Shown here: one piece after another, positions 10,747-61,947 of the stretch
How the letters are laid out: each line of letters starts with the position of its first letter
How positions within the stretch are numbered: the stretch's first letter is position 1
Source: Lacrimispora xylanisolvens
GTDB taxonomy: Bacteria; Bacillota; Clostridia; Lachnospirales; Lachnospiraceae
Length of the DNA: 64,000 nt
Assembly: GCA_017084465.1 (NCBI GenBank)
Contig: CP070896.1
Span: 310,001 to 374,000, forward strand
Direction of reading: 5' to 3'
The notes under the pieces: generated by a model
Database searches by the model: none
What the model saw: only the letters and a program-made list of their open reading frames with translations
Told to the model about the DNA's origin: nothing
Translations under genes and position numbers: made by a program

Positions 10747-11115
10747 TTATATCCCATTTCTTTTTAATTCTGTCCTCAGCCTTTCCAGCGCCTTTTTTTC
10801 CAGTCTTGATACATAGGATCTCGAAATTCCCATGAGATCTGCGATCTCCCTCTGGGTGTACTCCCTGCCGCCATGAAGTCCATAGCGCATCCCTATAATT
10901 GTTTTTTCATTGTCTTTCAGGCAGGAATCGAAAACTTCATAAAGTTCCTTGATGTCCTGTTTAAGTATGATGGTCTCTAACGTCTCTTTATTCTCCATCT
11001 CGATTACATCCAGAAGGCTTACCGTTTCTCCATCCTTGTCTACACCGATGGGTTCATATAAAGACACCTCTTTTGAATATTTTTTATTAGCACGAAGGAG
11101 CATTAGGATCTCATT
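10747..11115 (-). CDS. sigK: 3' part of split sigK (regions 2.4 to 4 of mother-cell sigma K)
   Basis: The reading frame leaving the AATGA core encodes NEILMLLRANKKYSKEVSLY, then the region 3 and 4 part ending EYTQREIADLMGISRSYVSRLEKKALERL, the sigma K/sigma E region 4.2 helix-turn-helix. It lacks regions 1.2-2.3 and its apparent ATG lies upstream inside the skin element, so it is not a free gene. Joined to the 5' part at 18892-19160 it gives an uninterrupted 210-residue sigma factor. Sigma K directs late mother-cell transcription in sporulation. Confidence 0.93.
   Translation of the reverse strand, partial: NEILMLLRANKKYSKEVSLYEPIGVDKDGETVSLLDVIEMENKETLETIILKQDIKELYEVFDSCLKDNEKTIIGMRYGLHGGREYTQREIADLMGISRSYVSRLEKKALERLRTELKRNGI
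11111..11115 (-). other. Left recombination core of the skin element (AATGA)
   Basis: AATGA on the minus strand within GCAAATGAGATCCTA. It codes for Asn-Glu of sigma K in one frame and supplies the TGA stop of the recombinase in another. Confidence 0.85.
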
Positions 11116-12782
11116 TGCTAGAGTCACAAGGTGGCTCCTTAGAGCCATACAGATAGAGATGGACAGTCTCTCCATCCCAGACAACCCGTTTTACCAGAAT
11201 CCGGATTGCGGCCCGTTTCTGTTCTACATCCATAAAATCCACAGTCTTTTCAAAAATGGACAGGGTCTCTTTCAGCAGATCAAATTCCAGATCAGTCAGT
11301 TCTTTCCCCATGGCAGTTTCCTTACAGACTTCAATCTGGGACAGGATCTGTTCTTTCTTTTTGTGCAGTTCATCAATCTGTCTGACTATATAGTCGTATG
11401 CCGCCGTTCCCCCCGGCAACCTTGATTGACGTCACAAGACCATCAATATCTTTTTCAGTTAGAGATAATTCCTCTTCCAGGCGGCTGACATCCTGTTCAT
11501 AATCCTGCTTTTCTTCCTTAAGCAGCTTTCTGCCTTCCTCTAACTGCCTGGTGAATTCTTTTTTGTCTTCAGAAATCTTTTTTAGTTCTTCAATCACCAG
11601 TCTGTCTAACAGATTTCCATCGGCATTTTTTATTGCACAGCACTTCATACGGCTTTTCTCTTTCATGGAACAGAGGTAGGAATAGATCTGCTCTCCCCGG
11701 TCATTATATCTGCCGGAAAGCTTGGGCCGCATATAGTGATTGCAATTTCCGCAGACAAGAATACCGGAAAGAAGTGCCACATTACTTCTGGGTCTGCGGT
11801 AATTTTTTGATTTATTCCGCTCCAGCTGACGCTGGACACTGACCCACTCCGCTCCAGAAATCAGCCCCTCATGTTTACCGATTGCCACAATCCATTCTTC
11901 CATCTCTTTCATTTCATGGGCCTTTCCCTGCTTTTGTAACGTCCGGTTATATGCAATAATACCATGGGTTCCTTTAAAATCAGCAGGGTCAGCAAAAAGT
12001 TCTACTTTTTTTTCTTTCAGATACTGATAGGCTTCCTGATCTGCAATCATATACACCGGGTTTGAAAGTATGGCCTTAATTGCAAAACGGCTGAATAAAC
12101 GTCCCTGCTTTGTTTTGTATCCATTTTGTATGAGATAAGTCTCTGTCTGTGTCAGGGAACCGGTTTCCAGAAATTTTTCATAAATCCGCTTTACCAGCTT
12201 TGCCTCCTGGGGAATCCGTTTCAGTTTATATGCCTTTTTCTGCTTCCCGTCAATGGTTATGGAAGTTACCCGTTCCGACTGATACCCGGTTGGGGTATTT
12301 CCGCCAAGCCATCTTCCGCTTTTGGAAAGTTCATGCATATTGTCCCGGATCCGTTCTGCAATGGTTTCTCTTTCCAGTTGGGAAAATACAGAAGCAATAT
12401 ACATCATAGCTCTTCCCATAGGAGATGATGTATCAAACTGCTCTTTAATTGAAATAAATGAAATTTCCAGATGGTTCAGTTCTCCGATCAGATTGGCAAA
12501 ATCTCCAATATTACGGCTGATCCGGTCAAGACGGTAGCATACAATCGCTGAAATCTTCTTTTTCTTTGCTTCTTTCATCATCTGCTGAAACTGGGGGCGC
12601 TCTAAATTTCCACCGGAAAAACCCTCATCCTCAAAAATCAGGGCACTGTCTGCAAAGGATTCTCCGTAATGGGTTAAGATATATTGTCTGCAAAGCTCGA
12701 TCTGATTGCCGATGCTTTCCCCTTTTCCGGTAAATTTGGATTTTCTTGAATATATGGCAAACGGCTGATTTCTGTCTTCCAT
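11111..12782 (-). CDS. spoIVCA: Large serine recombinase of the skin element (SpoIVCA-like; frameshifted)
   Basis: ATG 12782 is preferred because AAGGAGGA lies 8 nt upstream. The upstream ATG has no site. The N-terminal resolvase domain has FAIYSRKSKF (catalytic Ser15 of this start), SRNIGDFANL and SPMGRAMMYIASVFSQLERE. A recombinase domain (PTGYQ) and a zinc-ribbon (LVCGNCNHYMRP...CSMKEKSRMKC) follow, then a long coiled coil. The frame breaks at a G6 run (plus-strand CCCCCC, 11409-11414); with five G the protein continues through DYIVRQIDELHKKKEQILS to 556 residues. The stop TGA lies in the recombination core. It should excise the element to rebuild sigK. Confidence 0.9.
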
Positions 12783-12886
12783 CACACAAATCCTCCTTGT
12801 TTTCACATGGAAAGCGCGTCCTCAAACATACCGGACACGCAGAATAACATACAAATATAGTAACCCTGAATTTCAAGGTATTCTCT

Positions 12887-13054
12887 ATGAACATGATCGT
12901 ATATAATCCTCAAACGGAAGAAGATAAAAAAGAACTGGGCAGAAGGGCGGCCGTCATTCACAATCAGGTGCTAATGCAGTCAGTCCGCCTGCTTCACTGC
13001 CCAAATGACCAAAAGAAATTACTTTTAGATGCAATAAAAGCAGAAAGCACTTAG
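12887..13054 (+). CDS. Small hypothetical protein inside the skin element
   Basis: A 55-codon frame begins MNMIVYNPQTEEDKKELGRR and ends LLLDAIKAEST. It is charged, helical in character and has normal codon use. A weak AAGGT lies 8 nt before the ATG. It is divergent from the recombinase (about 100 bp apart) and its stop comes 4 nt before the end of the convergent hydrogenase large subunit gene. Small proteins of this kind next to a serine recombinase can act as directionality factors, but there is no direct evidence for that here. I do not recognise the family. Confidence 0.5.
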   Translation: MNMIVYNPQTEEDKKELGRRAAVIHNQVLMQSVRLLHCPNDQKKLLLDAIKAEST

Positions 13055-13058
13055 GCAG

Positions 13059-14435
13059 TCAGACAACCGGAATAATTTTAGTGGTTTTTCCGGGGATGAT
13101 TACATGAGTGGCACAGGAAACGCAAGGGTCAAAGGATCTGATAATTCTTCCTATTTCAACTGGCATAGATTCATCTTTCACCGGTGCGCCCATAAGCGCC
13201 TGTTCTGCTGTTCCTTTTCTCTCTCCTGTCTGAGTGGATAAATTCCACGCAGATGGAGTGATAATCTGGTAGAACAGGATTTTTTCATCCTCAATTGTCA
13301 GCCAGTGTCCCAGTGCTCCTCTGGTAGTATCAACGAGTCCTTTTCCATTCGCCTGAGCTGGTACCACATATTCCTGCTGCATGGGTACACCTGGAATTAA
13401 ATTCTCCAAAAGAGTATTCATGATCTGGGTTATTTTTTTCGCTTCCAGAACCCGTGCAATGGTTCTGTCCATGACAGATATTCCATGTCTGTACTCTCCT
13501 GACAACCATTGTCTTGCCAACGGACCCACTTCAAAAGGGACCCCGTTGTATCTGGGAGCCCTGATCCAGGAATAAGCTTCTGGTTTCTCCCTGTCTGGCT
13601 CATTGGCTTCATTAAACCAGGCATATTCATCTGACTGGGTTATGAGGTCCGGATCAAAATGGGAATACTGTTCATTTGTATAAATATACGGATCTACATA
13701 TAAAGTCCCCAGCTCCTTATAATGCTGAAAACAGCCATAGGTTAAAAGATTTCTATTACCTCCCCCAAAATGATAATACTCCGAATAGTAAGCCGCAATT
13801 TCGTATACATCCGGCAGCATTTTTTCAGTAATAAATTTTTCTATCCCAAATAGTATGGATTTAATGGCTATAATCATATCTGCCGTTACAGGTGATGTGA
13901 TTCCTCCTATAAAAACGCCATGATTGTGAGGTGCCTTTCCTCCCAGAATTGCCAGCATTTTATGTGCATTCCTGCTATATTCCATTGATTCAAAATAATC
14001 ATTTACCATACGTTCATTAACATTGTCAGGCAATCGGTAATCGTTGTGATCCGTTTTAAAAAGAGGGTAGCCTTCCGGAAGCTTTATATAGTCTGGAAGT
14101 GTATACTGATAGAGATGCCTTAAATGATTCTGGAGAAATTCACATGCATGAAGCAGATCCCTTAAATATCTTCCCTGCTCTGAGGGTACAATCCCCAGAG
14201 CGTCTTCAAGGGCCAGGGCGGAAGCCATGGAATGGGCAGTAGAACAGATTCCGCAGATCCGCTGTGTAAAATAAACTGCATCCAACGGTGCTCTGCCTGT
14301 CAGCATTTTTTCAAAGCCCCGGAACATAAGGCCTTTGGTACGTGCATCAGTAATAACATTATTTCCTACTTCTGCTGCTATCTCCATGAATCCGTTGATT
14401 CTTGTAACTGGATTGATGATAATTGTGTCCGCCAT
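13059..14435 (-). CDS. [NiFe] hydrogenase large (catalytic) subunit
   Basis: A 458-residue protein. It has both nickel-binding motifs: RICGICSTAH (Cys61, Cys64, His68) near the N-terminus, and DPCVSCATH (Cys438, Cys441, His444) at the C-terminus. After His444 come 14 residues that the maturation protease should remove, matching the protease gene upstream. It is shorter than typical periplasmic uptake enzymes (about 550-600 residues). It starts within 2 nt of the small subunit stop, with the ribosome binding site inside that gene. Together they oxidise or produce H2. No hyp maturation genes lie in the window, so those must be elsewhere. Confidence 0.93.
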   Translation of the reverse strand: MADTIIINPVTRINGFMEIAAEVGNNVITDARTKGLMFRGFEKMLTGRAPLDAVYFTQRICGICSTAHSMASALALEDALGIVPSEQGRYLRDLLHACEFLQNHLRHLYQYTLPDYIKLPEGYPLFKTDHNDYRLPDNVNERMVNDYFESMEYSRNAHKMLAILGGKAPHNHGVFIGGITSPVTADMIIAIKSILFGIEKFITEKMLPDVYEIAAYYSEYYHFGGGNRNLLTYGCFQHYKELGTLYVDPYIYTNEQYSHFDPDLITQSDEYAWFNEANEPDREKPEAYSWIRAPRYNGVPFEVGPLARQWLSGEYRHGISVMDRTIARVLEAKKITQIMNTLLENLIPGVPMQQEYVVPAQANGKGLVDTTRGALGHWLTIEDEKILFYQIITPSAWNLSTQTGERKGTAEQALMGAPVKDESMPVEIGRIIRSFDPCVSCATHVIIPGKTTKIIPVV

Positions 14436-14436
14436 A

Positions 14437-15333
14437 CTACTCCTTCCTCATGGTATCATAAGTGATGAATGGTTCCATGGCATCTGGAAATCCAAACTGG
14501 GCGCAGCCAATGCAGGGCGTATCGTCACCAATCGGCCAGTTTACGTGCCCATTCCATTTGCGGATAGGACAGTCTGTCTGTGTCACAAGTCCCCGGCATC
14601 CCAGCATGTACATACAGGTTTCTTCTCCCAGCTTTGTTGCAAATATTCCAGAATCATAATAGGATCTTCTTGGACAACGGTCATGAATTGTTATGCCATA
14701 AAACATCAGCGGCCGGTCCACTTCGTCCAGGGGAGGTTCCCCATACAGAATTAAATAAGCCACGGTTCCCATGAGCCAGTCCGGGTGACAGGGACATCCG
14801 GTAAGCTTGATTACTTTCCGGTTGACAACATCTGAAATCCCGGTACAATCTGACGGATTCGGTCTTGCCGCCGATACTCCGCCGTAGGAGGCGCAGTCAC
14901 CAACTGATATCACGTGGGCAGCACGTTCTCCCAGCCTCATTGCTGCTTCAAGGCCTGTTATTTCTCTTCCCTCATGACGTCCGATGATGTGATAGAGTCC
15001 GTTGTCCCTTCTGGAAACAGCACCTTCTACTGCTAATATGTATTCATCTCCAATGATATCAAACAGCTGATCCATCGCCTGATCCCCTTCGGATGCGATC
15101 AGGCTGTTACTGTAGATAAAGTTGGTCATCTGAGTCATAAGGTACTGGAAATCCGGATCCTGACCATCCAGCATGGAAATGGTATTTCCTGTACACCCGT
15201 TTAATTCCAGCCATACCAGATTGGGTTTGGTACGTTTCTGAGTTTCAATTTCTTCCATTGCTCTGGTTACCAGCTGTCTGGTTTCCTTCCATTTCATTTC
15301 TTGAAAAGGACAAAATGCACGCTTTTTCTCCAA
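14437..15333 (-). CDS. [NiFe] hydrogenase small (electron-transfer) subunit
   Basis: A 298-residue Fe-S protein that starts at TTG behind GGGGGAG. Candidate ligands: proximal cluster Cys47, Cys147 (VGDCASYGG) and Cys180 (LTGCPCHPDW); distal His217, Cys220, Cys240, Cys246; medial Cys255, Cys274, Cys277. The position normally filled by the second proximal cysteine is Asn50 (NGCTGNT). There is no twin-arginine signal and no C-terminal membrane anchor, so the enzyme is probably cytoplasmic. It passes electrons between the NiFe site and a partner, perhaps the b5-like protein encoded just upstream. Confidence 0.92.
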   Translation of the reverse strand: MEKKRAFCPFQEMKWKETRQLVTRAMEEIETQKRTKPNLVWLELNGCTGNTISMLDGQDPDFQYLMTQMTNFIYSNSLIASEGDQAMDQLFDIIGDEYILAVEGAVSRRDNGLYHIIGRHEGREITGLEAAMRLGERAAHVISVGDCASYGGVSAARPNPSDCTGISDVVNRKVIKLTGCPCHPDWLMGTVAYLILYGEPPLDEVDRPLMFYGITIHDRCPRRSYYDSGIFATKLGEETCMYMLGCRGLVTQTDCPIRKWNGHVNWPIGDDTPCIGCAQFGFPDAMEPFITYDTMRKE

Positions 15334-15348
15334 AGGTAATCGCTCCCC

Positions 15349-15999
15349 CTATTCCTGAACCATATATCCTACAACAGGCAATACACTCAGTACCATTGCG
15401 CCAGGGTGACAGGAGGCAAACTCTGCACTTAAATCTCTGCCTGCTGAAAGCCCCCAGAAATGATTGCCTCCTGCCCATAAACGGTTATTGCTGACATTAT
15501 AAACCACTCCATTCACTGCAACATAAGCCGGGGCACCATTTTTCCCATCATATTGTGCCAGTTGCTCCAGAGTAAAATAGGTCAGAGGCTGTGGCTGCCC
15601 ACCCTCCTCCGGCTGTGGCGTACCGGTTGGACTGCCCGTTGCGCCTCCGGTTGGACCGCTTACACCTCCGGTAGGACCAGTTACGCCTCCGGTAGGGCCA
15701 GTTACGCCTCCGGTGGGGCCAGTGATTCCTCCGGTGGGGCCAGTGATTCCTCCGGTGGGGCCTCCCATTCTGCCGCCTGTCTGATCATTCATCTGACTGG
15801 CAGCCAGCCCCTGCCCGTTTTCCTGCATCTGGCTTAATTGTCCGAAATAATAAACATGATTCTGAAGCATAATTAATTCACTGCTTAAATGATCCAGCAC
15901 ATCATTGCTGTTGTATAAATTGGAGCGCAGCTTTTCCACATCAGCATTTAATCTCTTTAAACTGCTGCCAAGATACGTCATGAGTAAATCCAAATCCAT
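15349..15999 (-). CDS. Cytochrome b5-like protein with a GPTGG-repeat linker, in hydrogenase operon
   Basis: A 216-residue protein in three parts. Residues 1-70 are helical (coiled-coil-like). About 75-125 is a low-complexity linker of near-perfect 7-residue repeats GPTGG(I/V)T. About 138-216 is a cytochrome b5-like heme/steroid-binding domain starting TYFTLEQLAQYDGKNGAPAY, with histidines in GGNHFWGL and CHPGA as candidate heme ligands. The ATG follows AAGGAGG at 7 nt. It sits 15 nt before the small subunit gene, so an electron-carrier or scaffold role for the hydrogenase is a reasonable inference. No signal peptide is seen. Confidence 0.78.
   Translation of the reverse strand: MDLDLLMTYLGSSLKRLNADVEKLRSNLYNSNDVLDHLSSELIMLQNHVYYFGQLSQMQENGQGLAASQMNDQTGGRMGGPTGGITGPTGGITGPTGGVTGPTGGVTGPTGGVSGPTGGATGSPTGTPQPEEGGQPQPLTYFTLEQLAQYDGKNGAPAYVAVNGVVYNVSNNRLWAGGNHFWGLSAGRDLSAEFASCHPGAMVLSVLPVVGYMVQE
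15641..15773 (-). repeat. Tandem 21-bp repeats encoding GPTGG(I/V)T
   Basis: Six to seven copies of a 21-bp unit. The units differ mainly at third positions (GGTAGGACC, GGTAGGGCC, GGTGGGGCC). The last two copies are almost identical, a sign of recent slippage. It lies inside the b5-like gene and keeps the frame. Confidence 0.9.
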
Positions 16000-16089
16000 A
16001 ATGTAACCTCCTTAGCTAATCTGTTAGAATATATGAGCAAGCCTGGTTTTTAAGCCCATTTTCCAGGGCATTTATAAAAGTAGCCCGAT

Positions 16090-16551
16090 CTAATTACTTT
16101 TTTTTAATTCTTTTGACAAAATTTCTCTTATAATATCTTCTGTCTTTCTGCAAATATGGGGAAACTGCCTTTTTAACACAGTACTTAGCTCACAGCCTGG
16201 TACAATTATGGCAGCCTCAATTCCAATTAAGTATCCTCTTACAGGAAAACGGTACAGTCTTATCATGTCAAGAAAACTCATATCATGCTGCATAATGGGA
16301 TTGGATACCTGCTCCATAATCTCCTCTAAGGAAAAGATTTTAACAGAGCCCGGCCGGTCCCCAGATGACATGGCATCCAAAATCAGTATAAAATCATCGG
16401 GATTCAGAGAATAAAAGCACGCCTCACTATCCGTTTCCCCATAGATTATTTCAAGTTCTCTGCGAAGGAACCGTTTTTCAAGTTCTTCTGCGACTAAAAG
16501 TCCAATCCCGTCATCCTTCATCAGCCGGCTGCCAATAGCGATCAGTTTCGT
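16090..16551 (-). CDS. [NiFe] hydrogenase maturation endopeptidase (HyaD/HupD-like)
   Basis: This enzyme clips the C-terminal tail of the large subunit after nickel insertion. Residues LIAIGSRLMKDDGIGLLVAE form the conserved N-terminal strand and metal-binding loop. ILILDAMSSGDRPGSV and later MSFLDMIRLY carry the other metal-site region. The frame reaches back past the first ATG (16521) to an ACG at 16551, which sits 8 nt after GGGAGG and gives the expected N-terminus TKLIAIGSRL. An ATG at that place would differ by one base. Starting at 16521 would delete the essential first strand. It leads the b5-small-large operon, about 90 nt upstream. Confidence 0.82.
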   Translation of the reverse strand, partial: TKLIAIGSRLMKDDGIGLLVAEELEKRFLRRELEIIYGETDSEACFYSLNPDDFILILDAMSSGDRPGSVKIFSLEEIMEQVSNPIMQHDMSFLDMIRLYRFPVRGYLIGIEAAIIVPGCELSTVLKRQFPHICRKTEDIIREILSKELKKSN

Positions 16552-16587
16552 TCTTCATCCCTCCCTGTCCTATTTTTTAAATATATG

Positions 16588-16624
16588 AAAAAGACATGGG
16601 ATTATTCACACTCCCATGTCTTTT
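16588..16624 (-). terminator. Terminator after the GH27 gene
   Basis: AAAAGACATGGGAG...ATCCCATGTCTTTTTC on the minus strand: an 11-bp stem followed by a T run, just after the glycosidase stop. It separates that gene from the hydrogenase genes. Confidence 0.85.
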
Positions 16625-16628
16625 AAAA

Positions 16629-17921
16629 TCAGGTTTCCTCGTAACGGCAGATCTTTGCCCCATGTCCGGGCACCTTTAATACCAGATCTTTTGATGTATT
16701 GGTGAACATTTCACCTGTCCAGAGTTCTGTGAAACAAATACCGTTCCAATCTTCTTTTTTAAGCAAACCGGCTGAAATAACAATTTCTCTCTCTTCTTCT
16801 AATAAATTGAAGACCGCCAAATAGTGAGTACCACTCTTTTGGTTACTGCTGTGCCAGATACAATGCTTCTCATCCCGGGCAAGCTGAATTGCTTTGCAGT
16901 CATCACTAAGAAGATCTAATACATCCGGGTTTGTAAGCAGAGTTTTTGTCCATTCATCCAACCGGGTAAGCTCCGCTCCAATCATTAAAGGAGACCGGAA
17001 TATGCACCAGAGTGACATCATTGTAATCTGTTCATCCCTGGTAAACCGGGTCTGACGTTCCTCTCCAAAGCCTTTCCCCAACATACCCACAGGAAGCATA
17101 TCACAATCCGGATAATTTCCCTGCCCCACATGGTTCTGCCAATGCTCACACCGTTCAAACATCTGCTTTAACAAATTCCAGTCGTCCCAAAAATCATCGG
17201 TAATCCGCCACATATTAGCGTAAGTCTCATAATGCCATGCCTCTTTCAGCCGGGCGGGTCCCGGTGAAAGGCTAAGTACCATCTGCCTTCCGCTTTTATT
17301 GATTGCTTCATGTAGCATACGGATTTCTTCTTTTGCAGACGCTGCATCCATGCGGCAGATATCATCACATTTGATAAAATCCACCCCCCACTGGGCATAC
17401 AGCTGGAAAATAGAATCATAATACGCCTGTGCTCCCTCTGCCTCAGGGTTCACCCCATACATATCCGGATTCCATGAGCAGATGGAATAAGGATTTGAAA
17501 TCCAATCGGCAGTACGATCTGTTCCCCATATCTTCATCTTATTATGAGCTGCGATACGTGGAACCCCTCTCATGATGTGAATCCCGAATTTTAAACCCAG
17601 CCCATGGATATAATCAGCCAGTGGTTTGAAACCATGACCGCCCACAGAAGATGGAAAGCGATCCGGACACGGCCAAAGTCTGGAATATTCGTCTATTTCA
17701 ACCTGACCGAAGGGAATATACTGGCACTCCTGTCGTCTGGTTCCGGCATTATGAGCATACCACTGTATATCAACCACAATATATTCCCAGCCATATTCTT
17801 TTAAATTCTGCGCCATATATTCAGCATTGGCCCGAACCTCTTGTTCTGTTACTGCCGTATCATAATAGTCATAGCTGTTCCACCCCATAGGGGGTCTTCC
17901 TGATGATAAATATCTGCTCAT
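16629..17921 (-). CDS. Glycoside hydrolase family 27 (alpha-galactosidase-like)
   Basis: A 430-residue TIM-barrel enzyme. The N-terminus RPPMGWNSYDYYDTAVTE is the standard GH27 opening. The nucleophile is likely Asp186 in DFIKCDDICR and the acid/base Asp243 in MWRITDDFWDDW. A C-terminal beta domain closes the protein. No signal peptide, so it is cytoplasmic and acts on imported oligosaccharides. It is divergent from an AraC regulator 101 bp away, a typical regulator-enzyme pair. GH27 also includes alpha-N-acetylgalactosaminidases and other specificities, so the exact substrate is open. Both genes sit inside the skin element. Confidence 0.9.
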   Translation of the reverse strand: MSRYLSSGRPPMGWNSYDYYDTAVTEQEVRANAEYMAQNLKEYGWEYIVVDIQWYAHNAGTRRQECQYIPFGQVEIDEYSRLWPCPDRFPSSVGGHGFKPLADYIHGLGLKFGIHIMRGVPRIAAHNKMKIWGTDRTADWISNPYSICSWNPDMYGVNPEAEGAQAYYDSIFQLYAQWGVDFIKCDDICRMDAASAKEEIRMLHEAINKSGRQMVLSLSPGPARLKEAWHYETYANMWRITDDFWDDWNLLKQMFERCEHWQNHVGQGNYPDCDMLPVGMLGKGFGEERQTRFTRDEQITMMSLWCIFRSPLMIGAELTRLDEWTKTLLTNPDVLDLLSDDCKAIQLARDEKHCIWHSSNQKSGTHYLAVFNLLEEEREIVISAGLLKKEDWNGICFTELWTGEMFTNTSKDLVLKVPGHGAKICRYEET

Positions 17922-18022
17922 CTGATATCCTTTCCTGGTAATTTATTGATTAATCTGATATCATTATAGCAACTGAACAATCTATTACAAGAGTAAGAAC
18001 ACGATACAGGGAGGGTAATTTT

Positions 18023-18884
18023 TTGATTAACGGATCTTGCCAGACATTTGGTTTTCTGGATCTTGACAGACAATGGAATGCACCACTGTTTCTCCTGGAT
18101 TTTGGCTTGGAGCAGAGAAAAAATGAAACCTATGATTTTCAAAATAATAATCGAGGCAGTTATTCTGGTTTTCTGATTCAGTACACATTAGATGGATTGG
18201 GAATGTTTGAATCAGAGGGGCAGACAACCATTCTTTCTCCTGGTGATGCTTTTTTTATCACATTTCCAGATAGAAGCAGATACTATCTGGCTGAGAATAA
18301 TTCATGGAAATACTTTTACATACATTTTGACGGCGAAATGGGGCAATATTTTTTTCAGCGGATACAGGCAATGACGGGAAAAACCTTTACCATCCCCAAT
18401 ACAAGTCAGGCCATCTTACTGTTTTTAGAGGAATTCCAGGCAGTGAAATCAGGGAAAAAATACGGGCGTTATGACAGTGGGATCTTTTTATACCAATTCC
18501 TTACCATTCTTATGAGAGAACTGGAAACCCCAATAAAATCAGTTAAAAATGCCTGTGTGGAAGATGCCGCAAAGTGGATGCAGACAAACTATAAATATCA
18601 GATGGGGCTCTCTTATATGTGCCGGGAGCTTGACGTGAGCCTTCCCCATTTAACAAGGCAGTTTCATTTGCAGACAGGGCTCTCTCCCATAAAGTATTTA
18701 ACCAGTCTGCGCCTGGAACATGCATTATCCCTTCTTCTAAATACGTCAATGGGTCTTGAGGCCATAGCGACGGAATGCGGATATTCCAACAGCAATTATT
18801 TCTCAAAGGTTTTTTAGGAAAAACATGGGGGTTTCACCTGCTCAATACAGAGACCGGCATAATGGGCTTCAAAAGCCGTTATGA
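18023..18884 (+). CDS. AraC-family regulator next to GH27 (frameshifted near its end)
   Basis: It starts at TTG 18023 behind AGGGAGGG. The N-terminal cupin-like sugar-sensing domain (about 1-150, with ILSPGDAFFITFPDRSRYYL) is followed by the two AraC helix-turn-helix motifs (LSYMCRELDVSLPHLTRQFH and LEAIATECGYSNSNYFSKVF). The frame stops at a T6 run (18810-18815); with five T it continues FRKNMGVSPAQYRDR to a stop at 18884, giving about 286 residues. The end lies 8 bp from the right recombination core. It probably activates the divergent glycosidase gene. Confidence 0.87.
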
Positions 18885-19160
18885 TAGTATATCATTCTCC
18901 ACACATTTCGCCGCATAAGTGGCCAGCCTTGATCCTCTGTCTGGATGAAAGGTATTAACAGCCTTGATTAAACCGATAGTTCCTACTGACAGAAGATCTT
19001 CCATATCATAGTCTGTATTCTGATACTTTTTTGCCACATGGGCTACAAGACGCATATTACGCTCGATGAGTGTGGCTCTCGCCTCCTGATCCCCTTCCTG
19101 GTATCGTTCCAGACACTCTCGTTCCTCTCGCGCAGTTAAAGGTTTGGGAAAAGTTTTCAA
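18879..19160 (-). CDS. sigK: 5' part of split sigK (regions 1.2 to 2.4)
   Basis: A TTG at 19160 follows AAGGTGG at 6 nt. Encoded residues include RNMRLVAHVAKKYQNTDYDM, EDLLSVGTIGLIKAVNTFHP and RGSRLATYAAKCVEN, the core-binding and -10 recognition regions of sigma K/E. The frame leaves sigma homology at the AATGA core (18892-18896) and stops 4 codons later inside the element. No ATG, GTG or TTG lies further upstream before a stop, so the protein has no pro-sequence, unlike B. subtilis pro-sigma K but like C. difficile SigK. It needs excision to be completed. Confidence 0.93.
   Translation of the reverse strand: MKTFPKPLTAREERECLERYQEGDQEARATLIERNMRLVAHVAKKYQNTDYDMEDLLSVGTIGLIKAVNTFHPDRGSRLATYAAKCVENDILS
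18892..18896 (-). other. Right recombination core of the skin element (AATGA)
   Basis: AATGA on the minus strand in GTGGAGAATGATATACTATC. It matches the left core and is the point where sigma K homology ends. Confidence 0.85.
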
Positions 19161-19189: not shown

Positions 19190-19217
19190 ATTTTATGCCG
19201 CCCTTATCTTTATAGTG
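19190..19217 (-). promoter_or_regulatory. Possible sigma-E-type promoter of sigK
   Basis: On the minus strand CATAAAAT (19197-19190) resembles the sigma E -10 element, with CACTATA 13 nt upstream as a weak -35. It ends about 30 nt before the TTG start. A perfect 11-bp inverted repeat lies further upstream at 19269-19295. Confidence 0.35.
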
Positions 19218-19306
19218 CTTTTACAAAAAATATTAGCTGGTACTTATTTATTTACAAAATTCTCTCTATTACTTTACATAATATTTTTATGTAAAGTAAC
19301 TCCCAC

Positions 19307-21294: not shown

Positions 21295-21400
21295 AAAAAA
21301 CCGCCTGGGCATCCCATAGCGGTGCCCAGGCGGTCGGCTTCAAAACGTAACGTGCTCCCCGTGGTTTTCTCCACTTATCCGCCAGTTGCACGTACCATGT
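21295..21400 (-). promoter_or_regulatory. ZTP (pfl) riboswitch with expression-platform terminator
   Basis: The minus strand shows AACTGGCGGATAAGTGG, then AACCACGGGGAGCACG, then CCGACCGCCTGGGCA, the conserved blocks of the ZTP/ZMP aptamer. The CCGCCTGGGCA block doubles as the 5' arm of a terminator that ends GCCCAGGCGG-TTTTTT (21333-21295). Ligand binding should block the terminator. It lies about 35 nt before purO. Confidence 0.93.
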
Positions 21401-35958: not shown

Positions 35959-36039
35959 TTAGAGTCATTCTCTTTTTGGTCTGTTTTCAACCGGATTATT
36001 GGTGTATAATCATCCTGATATTAATATATTAAATGCTTT

Positions 36040-36380
36040 GAGTAAGACGATAAGCCGGGTTATGTCATTGAATGGCCATCTATCTAGGCCTGCCGTCGCC
36101 AGCAGGCTCAAGCGACCTACCCGGAAGCAGACGGGCCGCCTTATGCTTCCTGTTCGGTCTTGCTTCGAATGGGGTTTACATGGACCCCTCCTGTTACCAG
36201 AAGAGCGGTGGTCTCTTACACCACCTTTCCACCCTTACCGCAGATGCGGCGGTTTATTTCTGTTGCACTTTCCCCTGGAGTCACCTCCGCCAGACGTTAT
36301 CTGGCATTCTGCCCTGTGAAGCCCGGACTTTCCTCACCTGCAGCCTTTCGGCTTTGCAGCTGCGGCCATTTGTCTTACTC
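36040..36380 (-). ncRNA. rnpB: RNase P RNA (bacterial class A)
   Basis: On the minus strand the 5' half contains GAGGAAAGTCCGGGCTTCAC and CAGGGCAG, the P4/J3-4 signature. The 3' half contains GATAGATGGCCATTCAATGAC and the terminal AACCCGGCTTATCGTCTTACT, which pairs with the 5' AGTAAGAC. About 341 nt, normal length. It is the catalytic RNA that matures tRNA 5' ends. Reading frames predicted here on the plus strand are artefacts. Confidence 0.96.
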
Positions 36381-36428
36381 AAAACCATATAAGTTTATCA
36401 TAGTTCCAGCCATTTGTAAAGCTGCCTT

Positions 36429-50604: not shown

Positions 50605-50699
50605 CTCCTATATGGTGGAATTAATATATGTCTTATCATACTTTACCATATTTTACCATAAAGTTAAAGCAGCGATTTCTCGCTGCTTTTTTCTTTTGT

Positions 50700-50875
50700 A
50701 ACCCCAAAATGCCGGTTCTTACTTATTGACGCCTAGCTAAGCTAGGTGGGCAACCTCACTCAGGCATCTGCCTTCCACTACAACGGAGGCCTGACATCCG
50801 CCTGAAAATATTGGAATCCCTTATGTCATAATGTAGGTTCAAAAAAGGTAAGATTATCGCACATCTCAGGAATTA
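50700..50875 (-). ncRNA. ssrS: Probable 6S RNA
   Basis: On the minus strand the segment starts ATTCCTGAGATGTGCGATAA and ends CCGGCATTTTGGGG; these ends pair. TCTTAC pairs with GTAAGA inside, leaving a central bulge, and a long apical stem is formed by CAGGC...GCCTG and GCCTCC...GGAAGGC. This rod with an open centre is the 6S fold, which mimics an open promoter and binds housekeeping RNA polymerase. Primary sequence resembles Firmicute 6S RNA only in part. A stem GCAGCGAGAAATCGCTGC (50670-50687) follows. Confidence 0.6.
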
Positions 50876-61845: not shown

Positions 61846-61947
61846 CTACTGTCCCACAGATGCTTTCAAATCATCTGCTGTTGCAAAAGCAACCCGGCTT
61901 ACAGCTGTTAAAAGCTGACGCCTGCTCAGTTTGTACTGTAGAGTCAT
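61846..61947 (-). other. Possible small reading frame or remnant
   Basis: A 33-codon frame MTLQYKLSRRQLLTAVSRVA to SVGQ. The same frame is open further upstream (VYGIKLIALH), and a neighbouring frame gives MVTFTAIRSYPITEARLRD from about 62017, so a 58-residue protein with one frameshift is possible. No family recognised. Otherwise the 61772-62024 gap shows nothing clear. Confidence 0.25.

Follow-up and report, generated by a model that had tools for sequence, protein, structure and literature searches.

A compact, non-viral skin-like element with hydrogenase cargo splits sigK in Lacrimispora and is very probably excised in sporulation

How sigma-K could be produced when its gene lies in two separated pieces is the question raised by a 64,000-nucleotide stretch of the Lacrimispora xylanisolvens genome (contig CP070896.1, positions 310,001 to 374,000), hereafter called the window, in which the two parts of sigK are held 7,781 bp apart, measured from core to core (Table 1). 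The explanation favoured here, which we regard as very probable, is that the intervening DNA is a skin-like element that is excised in sporulation by its own recombinase, together with a candidate directionality factor, in a process that restores sigK.

The SigK models TIGR02846/NF004471 of NCBIfam are the top matches for each part of the gene, and a scripted join of the two parts at AATGA yields an open frame of 633 nt (210 aa), with CVENEILMLLRA spanning the join, that aligns with zero gaps, at 75-87% identity, to intact sigK from four other Lachnospiraceae genera; the split and in-frame rejoining described in the original prediction are thereby borne out. The interruption lies at a short core repeat between in-frame halves, which is the organization of a sigK-intervening (skin-like) element. 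The pro-sequence is absent from the window gene, the profile match starting at position 24. Within the conserved region (19190..19243) that precedes the 5' part, CATAAAAT is a possible sigma-E type promoter.

The locus was surveyed in 25 Lacrimispora genomes, of which the window genome is a single contig of 5.63 Mb with 89.5% completeness. The 5' half is present in 24 of the 25 at 97-100% identity, its open frames (87-126 aa) falling below sigK length. In 23 of these 24 it gives way directly to element sequence, always at the same core; in the remaining one, L. defluvii (G007), the contig of the 5' half stops at the core. Both halves lie on a single contig in 19 genomes and on separate contigs in three (G007, G015, G017); the 5' half alone was detected in two (G001, G016), and neither half, at the thresholds used, in the 67% complete G010. 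Since this pair of halves and its core are seen again across the genus, the split cannot be ascribed to chance. Searches with each half and with a joined-core pattern found no second intact sigK in the window genome, in agreement with the original prediction; the next-best match to the 5' half (51% identical) was read as sigE and not as a second copy.

In the window, attL and attR share AATGA, as originally stated, and the same sequence is the recombination site of the Bacillus subtilis skin element (PMC10745906), as the original prediction also said. Genus-wide the claim requires trimming by one base: because attL reads AATGG or AATGC in many relatives, the common core of the two sites is AATG and not AATGA. 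The attP arms form a dyad whose best centre, in 19 genomes, falls between the two adenines of AATG, with a mean of 9.3 of 18 complementary pairs at that centre versus 4.9 across all centres. The TGA of the attR core is where the recombinase terminates in 16 of the 18 copies listed, two others (G019, G008) ending slightly earlier.

Among the genes of the element is one for a site-specific serine recombinase, whose frame is open, at 556-596 aa, in 21 of 22 genus sigK-element copies, with a ratio of nonsynonymous to synonymous substitution rates (dN/dS) of 0.08; the protein also matches the XisF model, below that model's cut-off. Divergent from it, an open reading frame (ORF) of about 55 aa occurs in 22/22 genus elements that reach the region, with a median dN/dS of 0.10. 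AlphaFold2 folds its product into two helices at a mean predicted local distance difference test (pLDDT) score of 90, and Pfam, NCBIfam and PHROGs hold no family for it. By position, size and conservation, this protein is probably the recombination directionality factor, or at least the best candidate for that role. The footprint upstream of its ORF, in which ACATA, GGACA and CATA are unchanged in 22/22 elements, is a possible mother-cell promoter, a suggestion that rests on conservation and not on the sigma-E score. That score, computed against a sigma-E consensus, gave a weak signal, P values of 0.05 or less being obtained for 5/10 sigK regions and 2/12 cytochrome-b5 regions.

An indirect sign of excision is offered by L. 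defluvii PI-S10-B5A, in which the element forms a contig of its own (JAAOXG010000072.1, G007:C120; 7,842 bp) with AATGA at both ends, while the left flanking contig ends at AATGA and the right one begins at AATGA. Such breaks fit a DNA population in which integrated copies are mixed with joined and circular ones, and they favour excision because a mixture of this kind would break an assembly exactly at the core; we know of no reason why a 5-bp repeat would do so. In G017, the core is the end point of one contig, which shares an overlap of about 99 bases with the next contig, the one that crosses attR, so that a core-located break is seen in two of the five genomes with a split or cut-off locus (G001, G007, G015, G016, G017).

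Several observations weigh against programmed excision. The joined sigK core was found in 0/25 genus genomes, joined sigK had no match in viral contigs, and the circle junction, for which the original prediction proposed a search, matched nothing in the 25 assemblies or in viral contigs. The L. defluvii pattern could stem from some other assembly cause. Sigma-E scores did not rise above those of shuffled sequences in any of the 11 small-ORF or 11 recombinase regions. Finally, the main frame of the window recombinase extends for only 477 aa (482 aa in the genus survey) and continues in another frame, the break falling within a run of G. If this frameshift were a real mutation, the window strain would have lost excision and would make no sigma-K, its relatives still doing so; we consider this unlikely, and the broken frame is probably a sequence error, since completeness is low and the element's AraC-like frame is also shortened (264 aa, versus 282-291 aa in three relatives). 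Frames broken with respect to relatives were recorded at 11111-12806 and 18023-18817 of the window and at 8259-9877 of L266, the last being the recombinase of an element in feoB (see below). These breaks agree with the 89.5% completeness of the single-contig assembly, and frameshifts in this genome therefore deserve distrust.

Could the element be a mobile one whose passengers are merely tolerated in sigK, leaving it at random or under stress with no link to sporulation? Its cargo varies among species, and two IMG/VR contigs (L178 505-2246; L179 1-1796) carry a recombinase relative followed by a sigma 3' part, suggesting that phage-like elements may use the same site. The history of the element speaks otherwise. 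Among splits with support of at least 0.9 (trees of 20, 21, 12 and 21 genomes), the sigK tree has 8/8 in common with the recombinase tree and 4/4 with the hydrogenase tree, with zero conflict, from which it follows that the element and its hydrogenase were inherited with the host through the history of the genus; the recombinase and hydrogenase trees each show one conflict with the small-ORF tree. Every genus genome with a sigK 5' half also contains the element, and a PHROGs search of the window cargo and recombinases returned no phage structural or replication family. The matches were to integration, regulator and unknown-function families, the recombinases adding weak tail and head matches (E 0.007-0.015), and a prophage or defective prophage was rejected on this basis. 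Although 1,066 phage records match the recombinase, all do so below 60% identity (40.7% for the best-ranked); its relatives in IMG/VR are closer, reaching 61% for full-length matches and 69% for partial ones, and the small ORF of locus L159 had no match among phage records. Mere tolerance is thus improbable.

The dN/dS analysis covered 21 genomes (G001, G010, G015 and G016 were not entered), among which the large subunit was missing from 7, the small subunit from 7, the cytochrome-b5 gene from 6 and the sigK 5' part from 1, each being absent, broken or overlooked by the search pattern. The median values of the sigK halves, 0.008 and 0.016, indicate that both are under strong purifying selection, and the notion that the insertion is fixed, that no sigma-K is made and that the halves are relics, which the missing joined gene and the broken window recombinase would fit, is barely credible given this selection, a core still in frame and the 21/22 open recombinase copies.

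Comparison with relatives therefore makes programmed excision very likely. During sporulation, and presumably in the mother cell, the serine recombinase and the small divergent protein would bring about a crossover between attL and attR within AATG, probably at AA; the element would depart as a circle, leaving a restored reading frame that encodes sigma-K without a pro-sequence, and the forespore chromosome would retain the element, so that the next generation inherits it. The original prediction of such excision is favoured by conservation throughout the genus, by purifying selection and by the L. defluvii contigs. Neither the non-viral hydrogenase cargo nor the conserved candidate directionality factor, the most unusual features, had figured in it.

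In the wider family, intact sigK is usual: a match to the 5' half with an E value no higher than 1e-30 was obtained in 123 of 250 genomes, and 110 of the 123 have frames of at least 208 aa; the other 13, including the window genome, have frames below 170 aa, and some of the 12 from other genera may be contig ends. A scan of genome contigs gave 452 relatives of the recombinase, of which the best 80 were kept (14 from Lacrimispora, 66 from elsewhere); a sigma 3' part starting at the same codon lies within 260 bp after the recombinase in 58/66 non-genus loci. Of 61 matches beginning at the junction residue, two of them viral, 53 score higher with the window sigK and 8 with the window sigE. The small ORF was recognized in 10/66 non-genus loci, matches in L145, L113 and L110 (E 0.3-0.6) being left out of the count; in L148, L151 and L159 it lies antisense, less than 200 bp from the sigK 5' half. 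Where the two halves lie no more than about 10.5 kb apart, as in seven elements, tblastn detected no hydrogenase, and varied other genes are present.

The cargo of the 19 elements that lie on one contig ranges widely, their sizes spanning 2,654 to 11,508 bp. A cytochrome-b5-like gene is common to 19/19, and in G011 and G012 it was found, among the genes sought, with the small ORF and the recombinase only, while the G019 element additionally has HypF, HypC, HypD and a HypE-like AIR-synthase protein. Two histidines are invariant across six aligned cytochrome-b5-like sequences; the linker type varies by species, with GPTGG repeats in the window and acidic/proline-rich or QPQEGS repeats elsewhere. 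The hydrogenase large subunit is a single-copy gene in 17/25 genus genomes, inside the element in 17/17, and in these genomes the element hydrogenase is the sole one of its type found. HypD occurs in 21/25 genomes, including 16/17 with the large subunit; the gene set of a predicted [NiFe] hydrogenase (both subunits, a maturation protease, and a Hyp maturation gene in the genome) is accordingly present. As judged from median dN/dS values of 0.066 for the large subunit, 0.081 for the small subunit and 0.118 for the cytochrome-b5-like gene, the hydrogenase cargo is under purifying selection, the small subunit of G004 being broken. The large subunit resembles [NiFeSe] enzymes; selenocysteine was rejected, the lone internal TGA (G021) being far from the active-site cysteines and indicative of a broken gene. 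Among the 250 family genomes, the large subunit was matched in two, the window's and G091, where a cytochrome-b5-like gene, the small subunit, the large subunit and the protease follow one another outside any sigK element seen, and where the sigK frame measures 216 aa. A tentative and rather doubtful extension is a domesticated two-state switch of the terminal mother cell, in which sigK and element promoters would drive the hydrogenase/cytochrome operon between the sigK halves until excision brought that state to an end, or to a circular form, and switched on sigma-K; if true, a single DNA rearrangement would couple hydrogen metabolism and late sporulation, and would explain why the hydrogenase stays at a single place.

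Table 1. Positions of the features discussed (window coordinates unless a locus is named)
Feature	Position	Strand	Remarks
sigK 3' part	10747..11115	-	SigK model as top NCBIfam match
attR core AATGA	11111..11115	-	includes TGA closing recombinase 3' frame; element-side arm 11132-11136
Recombinase 3' part, different frame	11111..11419	-	intact copies in relatives
Serine recombinase main frame	11373..12806	-	resolvase, recombinase, zinc-ribbon domains; likely start 12782
Footprint upstream of 55-aa ORF	12826..12859	+	three conserved motifs
55-aa ORF, candidate recombination directionality factor	12887..13054	+	divergent from recombinase
[NiFe] hydrogenase large subunit	13059..14435	-	
[NiFe] hydrogenase small subunit	14437..15333	-	
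Cytochrome-b5-like protein	15349..15999	-	collagen-like GPTGG linker
Hydrogenase maturation protease	16090..16521	-	HycI family
Alpha-galactosidase-like protein	16629..17921	-	Melibiase_2
AraC-type regulator	18023..18817	+	shortened
attL core AATGA	18892..18896	-	element-side arm CGGCT at 18874-18878
sigK 5' part	18892..19160	-	start TTG
Conserved region upstream of sigK	19190..19243	-	contains CATAAAAT
feoB loci	L266 1869-10735 (G000:C1 3815491-3824357); L267 255-10735; L073 3992-6405		

Two further observations stand apart from the sigK locus. A gene that we take, from its motifs, to be feoB seems to be split as well: the open frame of the FeoB C-part measures just 250-295 aa in 8/8 genomes searched, G004 alone having an additional frame of 728 aa. 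Upstream of the C-part, G005 and G000 have a FeoB N-part together with unrelated genes and a serine recombinase. In other genomes the C-part is abutted, at another codon, by a different recombinase that shares 45% identity with the one in sigK; programmed rearrangement may affect a second gene here, one outside sporulation. Rfam matches in the window comprise a tetrahydrofolate (THF) riboswitch (168-265), a ZMP/ZTP riboswitch (21317-21399), RNase P RNA (36035-36381), 6S RNA (50697-50875) and a nickel/cobalt (NiCo) riboswitch (61847-61939), the presence of the latter in the same window as a nickel hydrogenase being perhaps of interest.

Known systems place the element among relatives. The skin of B. 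subtilis, a 48-kb defective prophage (PMC13141910), is served by the serine recombinase SpoIVCA and the small recombination directionality factor Skr, of 64 aa (PMC6957869); it resembles the Lacrimispora element in its split sigK, AATGA, serine recombinase and small factor (a candidate here), while the latter element is non-viral, spans 2.65-11.5 kb and carries a hydrogenase, and its candidate gene is divergent from the recombinase gene, which Skr's overlaps. In Clostridioides difficile, skinCd (14.6 kb, PMC10745906; 19 genes, PMC5025042) interrupts a pro-less sigK and depends on a recombinase and a 72-aa directionality factor (CD1231, CD1234) under sigma-E and SpoIIID, at a site described as different from the B. 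subtilis insertion site (PMC5025042); the present element likewise has a pro-less sigK, a recombinase and a candidate factor. The gin element, which is found in some strains, splits gerE in Bacillus cereus ATCC10987 and comprises 31 genes and three recombinases, is likewise non-viral; its gene is rebuilt in sporulation by a serine recombinase that acts with an additional factor, and cleavage is predicted at AA (PMC5595907). The Lacrimispora element differs in lying genus-wide in sigK and in carrying a hydrogenase, none being reported there for gin. Further sigK insertions are known from C. tetani, C. botulinum, C. perfringens, the B. cereus group and Alicyclobacillus (PMC6957869, PMC5025042, PMC10745906, PMC13141910).

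Cyanobacterial heterocyst elements also split genes, and their excision takes place in a terminal cell; the one in hupL interrupts the hydrogenase gene itself, whereas in Lacrimispora the hydrogenase is cargo. A literature search of titles and abstracts, with few subscription papers, returned nothing on hydrogenases in sigK elements, on Lacrimispora sigK, or on skin elements of Lachnospiraceae, Sporomusa or Oscillospiraceae. The compact non-viral skin-like element with hydrogenase cargo is a new variety of a known system.

Species with a minimal element of 2.65 kb coexist with others, and hydrogenase-bearing species with those that have none, which makes the persistence of elements inside sigK testable. 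In contrast to the view of 2016 that skin elements are an exception in clostridia (PMC5025042), the element is found in all examined Lacrimispora genomes that have the sigK 5' half, and kin of its recombinase mark the same codon elsewhere.

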